This document shows, piece by piece, positions 1 to 22,611 of a stretch of 26,810 nucleotides of DNA (the first letter of the stretch is position 1; the number at the start of each line of letters is the position of its first letter). A program made the position numbers and the translations under genes. The DNA comes from a virus: IMG/VR virus record IMGVR_UViG_3300034072_001030, positions 1-26,810 of that record; one strand, 5' to 3'. Under the pieces are notes generated by a model that did not search any database, was not told the origin of the DNA, and saw only the letters and a program-made list of their open reading frames with translations.

Positions 1-438
1 TGGGCGGCGGCGCGGTTTGCGGCGCTGGCGGCGGACCCGGACCCGCGCTGCAGCATGCAGCCGACGCGGATGCAGCAGCAGATGATTGCGGCGGGGACGC
101 TGTCGGCGGACGAGGTGCGGCGGGCGAAACTTGCGGCGGGTGGCTGGTCGCGCGTCAACACGCTGGACGACAATGCGCTCAACCGGGCGCGCGGCACGAC
201 GGTTGACGCGGGCGTGCTGGCGCTGGCCGAGCGGACCGAGCAGGTGCACCGGGGCTCGGCCCTGTGGCGGGCGTGGGCGGAGCTGCACAGCCAGCGCGGC
301 TGGCCGTGGTTTGCCGATGCGGGCCGCTGTGCCGAGTGGGTGTATTTCCCGGCGCGTGAGGCCGGTGCGGGCGAGACCGTCGCGGATGTTGCGGCGGCGG
401 CGGATGCGTTTCTCGACACTGTGAGGGGGCGGGCATGA
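1..438 (+). CDS. Unrecognised phage protein, C-terminal part (5' end outside window)
   Basis: The reading frame is open from the first base, so the gene probably starts to the left. The first internal ATG is at 55, but the codons before it read well too (WAAARFAALAADPDP...). I do not recognise the family. The visible 145 residues are mainly Ala/Arg/Glu-rich and probably helical, with an aromatic patch (QRGWPWFADAGRCAEWVYFP) near the C-terminus and no membrane segment. Its stop codon overlaps the ATG of the NusG-like gene (ATGA at 435-438), so the two are translationally coupled. By position it is the last or second-last gene before the late operon, perhaps a replication or regulatory gene, but nothing in the sequence fixes a function. 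Confidence 0.6.
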   Translation, partial: WAAARFAALAADPDPRCSMQPTRMQQQMIAAGTLSADEVRRAKLAAGGWSRVNTLDDNALNRARGTTVDAGVLALAERTEQVHRGSALWRAWAELHSQRGWPWFADAGRCAEWVYFPAREAGAGETVADVAAAADAFLDTVRGRA

Positions 439-1025
439 CACCGGCAACATATGCGATGATCCAGCAGCTGGAGCTGATGATGGCGCTGGTGCGGCATGTG
501 CCGCTCGAGTGGGTGGTGGCCTGGTGCAATCCGCGTTGCGAGCAGCGGGCGGCAACGGCGCTGGGTGACCGGGGCGTGCTGACCTATCTGCCCATGGTGG
601 CCGAGCGGCGGCAGACCGGGCGTGACAAGCGATGGGTGGAGACCTATCGCCCGATGATGGTGCGGTATCTGTTCGTGGGGCTCGATGTGGCCGGCGGCGA
701 GACGGTTGACCTGGTGCGGGCAACGGACGGCGTCGAAGGGCTGTTGTCGGTGGAGCGCGGCGGGCGGGCCGTGCGGGTGCCGGTGCGCGATCTGACGCGG
801 GTGATTGCGACGTCGATTGCCTCGTTCAAGGGGCGCGAGATCGAGGTTGGTCACAGGTTTAAGCTGGGCGATGTGGTGCTCGTTGTGGATGGTCCGTTTG
901 CCGGGCAACAGGTTGTTGTTAAAGGCGTTGCGGCGGGCGGTGAGGCGGTGCGGGCGGATGTTTCGGCGTTTGGCGGCGACGTGCCGGCAACGCTGCCTGT
1001 TGACAGCCTCAAGGCCTCGGCGTAA
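435..1025 (+). CDS. NusG/RfaH-family transcription antitermination protein
   Basis: A 196-residue protein with the two-part layout of NusG paralogues. An NGN-like domain spans about residues 25-125, starting EWVVAWCNPRCEQRA. It carries the core strand RPMMVRYLFVGLDV (72-85), equivalent to the family's 'P-x-FPGY-x-FV' segment. A C-terminal KOW motif (142-164, FKLGDVVLVVDGPFAGQQVV) follows. Family members bind RNA polymerase and suppress pausing or termination. The length suits a specialised paralogue. The gene is coupled to the upstream gene by ATGA, and an intrinsic terminator follows 150 bp downstream, just before the late genes. I infer it is the phage late antiterminator. The first 24 residues are an extension of unclear role, and a later start is possible. 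Confidence 0.85.
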   Translation: MTPATYAMIQQLELMMALVRHVPLEWVVAWCNPRCEQRAATALGDRGVLTYLPMVAERRQTGRDKRWVETYRPMMVRYLFVGLDVAGGETVDLVRATDGVEGLLSVERGGRAVRVPVRDLTRVIATSIASFKGREIEVGHRFKLGDVVLVVDGPFAGQQVVVKGVAAGGEAVRADVSAFGGDVPATLPVDSLKASA

Positions 1026-1176
1026 CTCTGCGGTTAGGACAACTCGTCGGATCCCCCGGGGCTGCGCGGACAACGCGAACAACAGACCGACCGGGGCGGC
1101 GGACCCGGCCAGCATAGACACCGGAGCGGTGGAGCTGGCGCGGCGGGTTTCTATTGAGATCAGGATGACGGCAGCA

Positions 1177-1201
1177 GGCTCGCGGATCGCGGGCCTTTTT
1201 T
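1177..1201 (+). terminator. Strong intrinsic terminator between the NusG-like gene and the late operon
   Basis: An 8-bp GC-rich stem (GGCTCGCG at 1177-1184 with CGCGGGCC at 1188-1195, one G-T pair) has a 3-nt loop and is followed by six T (1196-1201). It lies 19 bp before the HNH gene ATG. Transcripts from the left would stop here unless modified, which fits a target for the NusG-like protein encoded immediately upstream. Confidence 0.85.
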
Positions 1202-2181: not shown

Positions 2182-3969
2182 ATGCGCACGGACCCGGACG
2201 TTGATCCGGTGACGGCCTGGGCCGAGGATGTCGACGCGGGCCGGGTCGTTGCCGGTCCACATATCCGCGCTGCCGCCCGGCGGCATCTGACCGACCTTGA
2301 GGAGGCGGGCAAGCGGGGCCTGGTGTTCGACCGGGAAACAGCGCTGCGGGCGGTGGAGTATTTCCCGCGCCGGTTCCGGCTCAATGGCGGTCAGTTCGAG
2401 GGCAGGCCGTTCCACCTGCATCCGAGCCAGCAGTTTCGCATCGGATCGCTGTTCGGCTGGCTCAACAAGGACACGAAGCTGCGCCGGTTCCGGCGCTTTT
2501 ATGACGAAGAGGGCAAGGGCAACGGCAAGAGCCCGATGCTTGCCGGCATCGGACTTTACGGCCTCGTCGCCGATGGTGAGCCTCGCGCCGAGATCTACGC
2601 CGCCGCATCAAAAAAGGACCAGGCGATGGTCTTGTTTAAAGATGCGGTTGCCATGGTGCAGCAGTCGCGCGACCTTGCCCGACGCGTCCGGCAACACGGC
2701 GTCGACCCGGTCTGGGCGCTGTCCTATCAGGGCAAGGCGGGTGACCGGCGCGAGTTCAAGCCGATCTCGTCGGATGACGGCCAGTCCGGGCCGCGCCCGC
2801 ACATGGCGCTGACCGACGAGGTGCATGAGCATCGCAACCGCGACGTGATCGACATGCTCGAGCGCGGGTTCAAATTCCGCCGGCAGCCGCTCCTCTGCAT
2901 GGCGACGAACGCGGGAACGGATCGAAAGAGCGTCTGCTTCGAGGAGCATACGCACGCGATCAATGTCGCGCATGGCCGCGTCGAGGATGACACGACTTTT
3001 GCTTTTGTCTGCTCCCTCGATGAGGGGGATGACTGGGAGCTAGATCCGTCCTGCTGGGGCAAACCCAACCCGCTGCTCGGCTCGATCCTGTCTCAGAAGT
3101 ATCTCGCGCTGCAGGTCGACCAGGCGGTCAAGATGCCGGGCAAGCGCAACGGCATCGCGAGGTTGCATTTCTGCGAATGGACGGACGCGGTGACGGCCGC
3201 CTTCAAGCACCAGACCTGGTCGGCCTGTCTGGGCGAGGCTGATGTCGACGCGCTGATTGCTGCCGGGCATCCCTGCTACGGCGGTCTCGACCTGTCGCAG
3301 TCGAGGGATTTCACGGCGTTCACGCTGACCTGGGTGCTGGACGCGACCAAAGACGCCGAACGGTTTGTCAGCAAGACCTGGTTCTGGACGCCGGGCGACA
3401 CGCTGCGCGAGCGCGCGGCGGCGGACAAGGCGCCCTATGAGGTCTGGGCGCGCGACGGGTTCATAGAGCCGGTGGACGGTGACCGCATCCGCTATGCCTG
3501 GGTGGCCGACGCGCTGCAGCGCATTTGCGCGAGGGCGCGACCGCGCGAGGTTGCGGCGGATCAGTACGGGCTGGAGCGGCTGCGCGAACACATGCTCGAC
3601 GGCGGCCAGTCCATCCCGTTCGTGATCCACCCCCAGGGGTTCAACCGGCGGGTATTGGAGACCGACAAGGACCTGCCCGAGGGCGAGCAGGAAATCTATC
3701 TCTGGATGCCTGACAGCATCAACAAGATGGAAGCGGCGGTCCTCGAGGGCCGCATCGTGATCGAGCGCAACCCGATGATGACGAGCTGCGCTGCGCATAC
3801 GGCCTACACCCAAAACCGGACCGGACACCGGATGCTGGACAAGCAGAAGGCGACGGGGCGCATCGACGGCATGGTCACTCTGACCATGTCCATCGGTGTT
3901 GCCACGTGCCGCACGCGCGCAGCTCCGCCGCCCTCGGTCTATGAGACACGCGGGATCTTGATGCTGTGA
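2182..3969 (+). CDS. terL: Large terminase subunit (packaging ATPase/nuclease)
   Basis: 595 residues, a normal length for the HK97/Terminase_1 type. The ATPase domain shows a Walker A-like motif GKGNGKS (111-117) after FYDEEGKGN and a Walker B MALTDEVHEH (208 onward, D212/E213). The nuclease domain begins around GGLDLSQSRDFTAF with the metal-binding Asp at 370. The family cuts concatemeric DNA and pumps it into the prohead through the portal. The start is 1 nt after the small subunit stop. The stop overlaps the GTG start of the portal gene (GTGA). No damage is seen, so packaging looks intact. Confidence 0.95.
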   Translation: MRTDPDVDPVTAWAEDVDAGRVVAGPHIRAAARRHLTDLEEAGKRGLVFDRETALRAVEYFPRRFRLNGGQFEGRPFHLHPSQQFRIGSLFGWLNKDTKLRRFRRFYDEEGKGNGKSPMLAGIGLYGLVADGEPRAEIYAAASKKDQAMVLFKDAVAMVQQSRDLARRVRQHGVDPVWALSYQGKAGDRREFKPISSDDGQSGPRPHMALTDEVHEHRNRDVIDMLERGFKFRRQPLLCMATNAGTDRKSVCFEEHTHAINVAHGRVEDDTTFAFVCSLDEGDDWELDPSCWGKPNPLLGSILSQKYLALQVDQAVKMPGKRNGIARLHFCEWTDAVTAAFKHQTWSACLGEADVDALIAAGHPCYGGLDLSQSRDFTAFTLTWVLDATKDAERFVSKTWFWTPGDTLRERAAADKAPYEVWARDGFIEPVDGDRIRYAWVADALQRICARARPREVAADQYGLERLREHMLDGGQSIPFVIHPQGFNRRVLETDKDLPEGEQEIYLWMPDSINKMEAAVLEGRIVIERNPMMTSCAAHTAYTQNRTGHRMLDKQKATGRIDGMVTLTMSIGVATCRTRAAPPPSVYETRGILML

Positions 3970-7298: not shown

Positions 7299-7328
7299 CG
7301 GCGGGCGCTGTGTGCGCTCGCCGCTTTT
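7299..7328 (+). terminator. Terminator-like hairpin after the capsid gene
   Basis: A 10-bp stem (7299-7308 with 7314-7323, one G-T pair), a TGTGT loop, then C and four T (7325-7328). It lies 9 bp past the capsid stop and just before the ribosome-binding site of the next gene. Confidence 0.7.
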
Positions 7329-9338: not shown

Positions 9339-9360
9339 GCCGCCCGCGAGGCGGCTTTTT
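9339..9360 (+). terminator. Terminator-like hairpin before the tail tube gene
   Basis: A 6-bp perfect stem (GCCGCC 9339-9344 with GGCGGC 9350-9355), loop CGCGA and five T (9356-9360). A 14-bp perfect palindrome (9320-9333, CCTCCAGCTGGAGG) lies just upstream. Confidence 0.7.
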
Positions 9361-9870: not shown

Positions 9871-9901
9871 GGCCGGCGGCGAGGGTGCCGCCGGTCCTTT
9901 T
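9871..9901 (+). terminator. Terminator-like hairpin after the tail tube gene
   Basis: A 10-bp stem (9871-9880 with 9887-9896, one G-T pair), loop GAGGGT, then C and four T (9898-9901). It lies 16 bp past the tail tube stop. Confidence 0.7.
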
Positions 9902-22586: not shown

Positions 22587-22611
22587 GGCTCGCTTTGGCG
22601 GGCCTTTTTTT
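22587..22611 (+). terminator. Strong intrinsic terminator at the structure/lysis boundary
   Basis: A 7-bp stem (GGCTCGC 22587-22593 with GCGGGCC 22598-22604, one G-T pair), loop TTTG, and seven T (22605-22611). It ends 12 bp before the endolysin ATG, so the lysis genes can only be transcribed by reading through it or from a promoter inside the hairpin region, which is not visible. Stem arms match those of the terminator at 1177-1201. Confidence 0.85.

Follow-up and report, generated by a model that had tools for sequence, protein, structure and literature searches.

How could a phage transcribe its late genes when a transcription terminator stands directly in front of them? The question is raised by a virus record from IMG/VR (26.8 kb; the window hereafter, meaning the whole stretch of DNA that was analysed), in which an open reading frame (ORF) for a NusG-like protein is followed by a terminator, an HNH endonuclease gene, the genes for the small (TerS) and large (TerL) subunits of the terminase and then head-tail genes. 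A first-pass annotation of the sequence had described a protein with NGN and KOW domains, an intrinsic terminator and then a late unit, and Pfam, PHROGs and a terminator scan bear this description out. It had missed a conserved RNA at 1034–1161 and two promoter-like boxes at 1000–1005 and 1023–1028. Together, a phage NusG paralogue, a likely promoter, an unlisted RNA and a stop signal before the late genes look like a switch, so far unstudied, that turns on the production of virus particles. The best explanation, and to judge from the sequence comparisons a likely one, is a phage late-gene switch laid out like that of lambda Q, in which the NusG paralogue would be loaded by the leader RNA.

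What kind of protein is encoded upstream? The ORF at 435–1025 (+ strand) specifies 196 amino acids with an N-terminal helix, an NGN domain and a KOW β-barrel domain, as read from Pfam, PHROGs, NCBIfam, AlphaFold and Foldseek. Pfam NusG matches at 4.6e-11 (43.5 bits, cut-off 22.2), Pfam KOW at 1.2e-4 (22.3 bits, cut-off 22.3) and PHROG 6386, ‘transcription antiterminator’, at 2.5e-18. The AlphaFold prediction, made with 18 family members (predicted local distance difference test, pLDDT, 82.9), has an extra N-terminal helix and a C-terminal domain (CTD) of β strands; this CTD comes from one model without templates, with which a second, α-hairpin fold is still compatible. A comparison of the structure with NusG and RfaH had been proposed at first pass, and Foldseek does match the predicted fold to both, as well as to a NusG–RNA complex, but the α-helical CTD of RfaH is not predicted. 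By its NGN and KOW domains and its fold matches, the protein belongs to the NusG/Spt5 superfamily. Judged by score it is not the housekeeping NusG (NCBIfam nusG 27.6 bits against a cut-off of 135.7). Its best NCBIfam scores are those of RfaH, at a third of the cut-off (48.2 against 144.5 bits), and UpxY (47 against 100). The NCBIfam LoaP model gives no match to it at E 0.001, and seven of 16 relatives match that model weakly. Across Pfam, PHROGs and NCBIfam all its matches are to the NusG family, with no homology to lambda Q. One Pannonibacter genome holds near-identical copies of the protein (L026 and L034) and, separately, a weaker NusG-family match directly before an ORF which we take to encode ribosomal protein L11; this is the usual place of the host nusG gene.

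What lies between the gene and the terminator? It is a leader RNA of ~130 nucleotides (nt), found at 1034–1161 on the + strand with 113.5 bits by our RNA model R1, whose training set includes the window copy. An alignment of 17 loci yields a consensus of three helices on the + strand, in which 1044–1049 would pair with 1097–1102 (helix 1), 1054–1059 with 1091–1096 (helix 2) and 1108–1113 with 1134–1139 (helix 3). Compensatory changes occur in 11 of its 18 pairs, 97.7% of the cells pair, and covariation reaches 0.579 compared with at most 0.115 when the partners are slid. An enlarged set of 27 sequences gives 97.1% pairing and a covariation of 0.629 (at most 0.127 in slid controls), and sequences retrieved with nothing but a short DNA pattern give 96.7% and 0.558; both of these alignments were made by fitting to the model, a procedure that favours the structure, and a few of the pattern-fetched sequences appear from their identical scores to be the same phages as the training set. 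The compensatory changes strongly support the predicted fold. Because G-U cells far outnumber A-C cells (55 versus 4), the + strand is identified as the one that folds. None of the 4227 models in Rfam 15 matches the element of the window or that of L052, L058 or L003. A further pairing of ACCC with GGGU (1103–1106 with 1145–1148) is mostly kept, shows little covariation and is not claimed here.

Does this RNA keep company with the gene? Searching viral contigs with the single sequence gave one match only, and a profile search was needed to find relatives; it returned NusG-like genes from IMG/VR and GTDB genomes and, in the 87 genomes of the Pannonibacter family, 24 matches spread over 17 genomes. 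The Labrenzia phage vB_LagS-V1 encodes a protein only about 30% identical to that of the window, and yet the DNA after its gene is clearly alignable through the terminator. The RNA model found 28 elements in 19 of the 87 Pannonibacter-family genomes; 23 lie directly 3′ of a NusG-like ORF, one more follows a decayed copy (L068), and two weak ones (L085 and L090) are orphans. When viral contigs were scanned with the RNA core pattern and without regard to the gene, 18 contigs were recovered, and a NusG-like ORF ends 91–119 nt upstream in every one of them. Run across the whole order with strict filters, under which weak matches may drop out, the RNA model hit two of 347 genomes, both in the Pannonibacter family. 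The gene–RNA pair precedes three unrelated packaging modules, and in L109 a nusG 92% identical to that of the window is joined to a Labrenzia-type terminase; the element thus travels with nusG and not with the packaging genes. A replication gene upstream is often common to these loci too, so synteny contributes to the pairing. In two loci (L095 and L099) extra genes of unknown function are inserted between the RNA element and the HNH and terminase genes, which suggests that cargo may also depend on the switch.

Where would a transcript carrying this RNA begin? The proposed −35 box of a late promoter is TTGACA (1000–1005), which still belongs to the nusG-like gene and lies in its 3′ end. After a 17-nt spacer, TAACTC (1023–1028) overlaps the stop codon of the gene as a proposed weak −10 box; both boxes are on the + strand. 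TTGAC is found 34–36 nt 5′ of the element in all 17 lineages examined. The nusG stop codon moves (about −6 to −15 where it precedes the element), while the distance of TTGAC stays fixed. Could this be a matter of coding? GTT makes up 22% of the Val codons elsewhere in the nusG-like genes, and one lineage has Leu (CTT) at the site and still keeps TTGAC. An orphan element, L087, keeps TTGACA just as far upstream, where the DNA is non-coding. The −10 region, counted over the 17 lineages, agrees with TATAAT 56 times; shuffles give 40.5 ± 3.6. The element is probably the 5′ end of the late transcript, which would start at its first bases.

The intrinsic terminator 3′ of the leader (1176–1201, + strand, −14.7 kcal/mol) consists of a stem-loop with a 9-base-pair stem at 1176–1196 and a T run. 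Of 21 related lineages, 15 have a hairpin-terminator no more than 150 nt beyond the leader, whereas 9.2% of background windows of 150 nt contain one (P about 8e-12, with lineages grouped by eye and treated as independent). The first-pass annotation had also counted at least five hairpins inside the late unit, and it named five regions. Four of these, each between listed ORFs on the + strand, pass a strict scan, which was used because the relaxed one is far too permissive: 7299–7323 (−20.7 kcal/mol), 9339–9355, 9871–9896 (−21.6 kcal/mol) and 22587–22604, before the lysin gene. The fifth and weaker one, between the HNH and terS genes (1624–1652, + strand), appears under relaxed rules only. The sites at 9339 and 9871 recur in the relatives L111 and L109. 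A Labrenzia phage has terminators just 5′ of its major tail protein gene (7129) and its endolysin gene (17007), the latter corresponding to the window site before the lysin gene. The strict scan gives a further site within terL (2481–2496) and four sites on the opposite strand.

How might these parts work together? In the proposed mechanism, the gene upstream would be run to make the NusG paralogue. A σ70-type promoter, its −35 box in the 3′ end of the nusG-like gene, would start a transcript at about 1034–1036, the first ~130 nt of which would fold into the conserved RNA. With the protein absent, polymerase would stop at about 1196–1201 and release a short RNA of about 165 nt. With the protein present, it would join the elongation complex via its NGN domain, guided by the leader RNA and displacing the host NusG, and the modified polymerase would pass the leader terminator and the terminators inside the late operon. 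This proposal is built from sequence comparison: the protein family, the terminator, the + strand RNA fold, the pairing of gene and RNA and the fixed spacing of the promoter-like boxes. Promoter activity, RNA binding, antitermination and processivity are what we infer from these. A NusG-type late antiterminator, as suggested at first pass, is still the best explanation, and the comparisons strengthen it, since the order of gene, terminator and late operon recurs in many phages. Is it, as was also suggested, a different solution from Q? In lambda the order is Q–pR′–tR′, that is, an antiterminator gene, a late promoter, a terminator near the start and the late genes. With its proposed promoter the layout of the window is the same, so it would be less a different solution than the same circuit with a different protein.

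Several observations weigh against this proposal. The argument for the promoter rests on conservation, since a generic promoter scan of the window found no site; the −10 box of the window is weak (two of six matches), and a lineage outside the 17, L083/L138, is without TTGAC. The terminator is missing or undetected in six of the 21 lineages, some of them decayed or rearranged. Two confident elements, L084 and L087, are orphans, although L087 is probably a decayed copy. Gene and RNA are syntenic in related phages, and their pairing may partly be shared descent. L084 (L103:5376–5512) has a terminator about 115 nt on and sits in a 14-kb contig with an integrase and plasmid genes (RepA, MobA/MobL, ParA-like); it could respond to a phage NusG in trans.

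Could the RNA do the work by itself? A highly structured, conserved RNA at the start of a transcript might be the antiterminator, like HK022 put, leaving the NusG paralogue with another or an accessory role. The two confident elements that lack an adjoining NusG gene would fit, and put RNA acts without phage proteins according to the available part of PMC9378689. But the gene is directly upstream in all 18 pattern-fetched contigs and in 23 of the 28 model matches, L068 and probably L087 are decayed copies, and one would not expect a NusG paralogue with no function here to keep its place beside the RNA in front of several packaging modules, which makes this explanation improbable. That constant company, together with the place before late genes, is likewise left unexplained if the promoter, the structured RNA and the terminator make up a gene for a small RNA acting in trans, with the adjoining paralogue unrelated to the RNA. 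The anatomy, about 165 nt long, would suit such a gene, and two Bradyrhizobium-type leaders (L131 and L125) pass the Rfam mmgR/suhB score; however, Stappiaceae-type elements match no Rfam family, and lambda too makes a terminated leader RNA without that being its point. We give the small RNA gene even less credence than the RNA acting alone.

The same low standing applies to an RfaH-like factor that would mainly counter Rho and recruit ribosomes, with the intrinsic terminator secondary. RfaH and UpxY give the best NCBIfam scores, and ops-like GCGGTAGC occurs shortly after the gene in distant members (L025 and L029), but the RfaH score is a third of its cut-off, the CTD is predicted in the single template-free model as a β barrel and not an α hairpin, and a strong intrinsic terminator, against which RfaH is rather inefficient in the available part of PMC7819879, follows the element in most lineages. 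With that score far below the cut-off, the KOW domain predicted as a β barrel and the likely partner a leader RNA instead of ops DNA, the comparison with RfaH drawn at first pass was too narrow. Might the conserved block instead act as DNA, for instance as a packaging (cos/pac) site, and have nothing to do with transcription? It lies near terminase genes, where cos sites occur, and an HNH gene follows. The compensatory changes and the ratio of G-U to A-C cells point to a + strand RNA, though, and the same block precedes three unrelated packaging modules; a packaging site is largely excluded by the covariation and the exchange of packaging modules, and is by far the least probable of these explanations.

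How does the proposed switch compare with known systems? The closest biochemical parallel is LoaP, a NusG paralogue of Bacillus velezensis which depends on a hairpin in the leader and gets past an intrinsic terminator (PMC12691694). Both share a NusG paralogue, a structured leader RNA followed by an intrinsic terminator, and long operons (PMC12691694). LoaP serves antibiotic operons through one small UNCG hairpin, whereas here there would be a phage late operon, a multi-helix RNA of ~130 nt and an alphaproteobacterial host; RNA binding has been shown for LoaP and is predicted here. In Caulobacter, GafZ of the gene transfer agent is a dedicated antiterminator that overcomes a terminator near the start of a phage-derived alphaproteobacterial late cluster, working with host NusA, NusG and NusE (PMC11150451); there the NusG is the host's, here it would be the phage's own paralogue. 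With lambda Q the window shares the order of gene, terminator and late genes, the promoter here being proposed from conservation. Q is not a NusG paralogue, and for loading it uses a DNA site and a sigma-dependent pause (PMC7171158, available part), whereas the signal conserved here is a folded RNA. RfaH, ActX, UpxY and TaA are from the same superfamily, have operon-specific roles and are in some cases encoded beside their targets, and the available part of PMC7819879 lists no phage member among them; the window protein falls far below the RfaH and UpxY cut-offs, and the fold-switching α CTD is not predicted. HK022 put is likewise a nascent phage RNA element that suppresses termination, for early genes and without phage proteins (PMC9378689, available part), whereas the RNA described here goes with a NusG paralogue and precedes late genes. 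rfaH-like genes have been noted on prophages (PMC7593976). The first-pass annotation knew of no experimental account of a phage NusG late antiterminator, and none was found in the literature searched either, where subscription papers are thinly covered and absence is not proof.

Is the arrangement confined to one family of phages? In Bradyrhizobium-type phages another conserved block, CGGCCGGT...TTTCACCCGCCGGGyGGCTTGTG, comes after the NusG-like genes, often with a terminator as well. A scan with the block pattern found 19 contigs, 15 with a NusG-like ORF upstream; in three of the other four the pattern lies less than 300 nt from the contig end. Many distant loci have terminase or portal genes of several types downstream. 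It is somewhat probable that phages repeatedly recruited NusG paralogues as late-gene antiterminators, each with its own cis leader element, the ~130-nt RNA in the Pannonibacter/Labrenzia family and the CGGCCGGT block in the Bradyrhizobium type. The suhB/mmgR small RNA family (RF00519) matches three Bradyrhizobium-type contigs (L131:7723–7806, − strand; L125:8131–8215, − strand; L133:4864–4939, + strand), and in the first two it overlaps the NusG-linked leader and its terminator or lies next to them. Ops-like GCGGTAGC, resembling the RfaH loading site, stands just 3′ of the distant NusG-like genes L025, L029 and L038, as noticed by eye and with no estimate of chance.

Downstream of the leader terminator in the window, all on the + strand, come the HNH endonuclease gene (1221–1601; PHROG 2323, 1.8e-22), for which we chose the probable start ATG at 1221, within the listed ORF 1200–1601, terS (1707–2180; Pfam Terminase_4, 8.6e-13) and terL (2182–3969; Pfam TerL_ATPase and TerL_nuclease). 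A poly-G tract between the HNH and terS genes, at about 1600–1611, is found in the same region in L003 and L057 (GGGGGGGTGGGTC in relatives) and might be a cos site. In a Bradyrhizobium prophage the gene for the large terminase (L030:7032–9299) carries an intein (Pfam Intein_splicing, 2.1e-15).

Phage antitermination by N, Q and put is a founding model of gene control. If the proposed switch is real, it would tie this line to the one of RfaH and LoaP through a phage NusG paralogue that has a leader RNA of its own. It would offer a compact RNA–protein pair for studying how NusG paralogues are recruited and intrinsic terminators passed in Alphaproteobacteria. A strongly covarying RNA family would be added, and ‘hypothetical’ proteins in phages such as vB_LagS-V1 would gain a possible function. 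Both phage groups together would then represent a widespread counterpart of the lambda Q switch that has gone undescribed.
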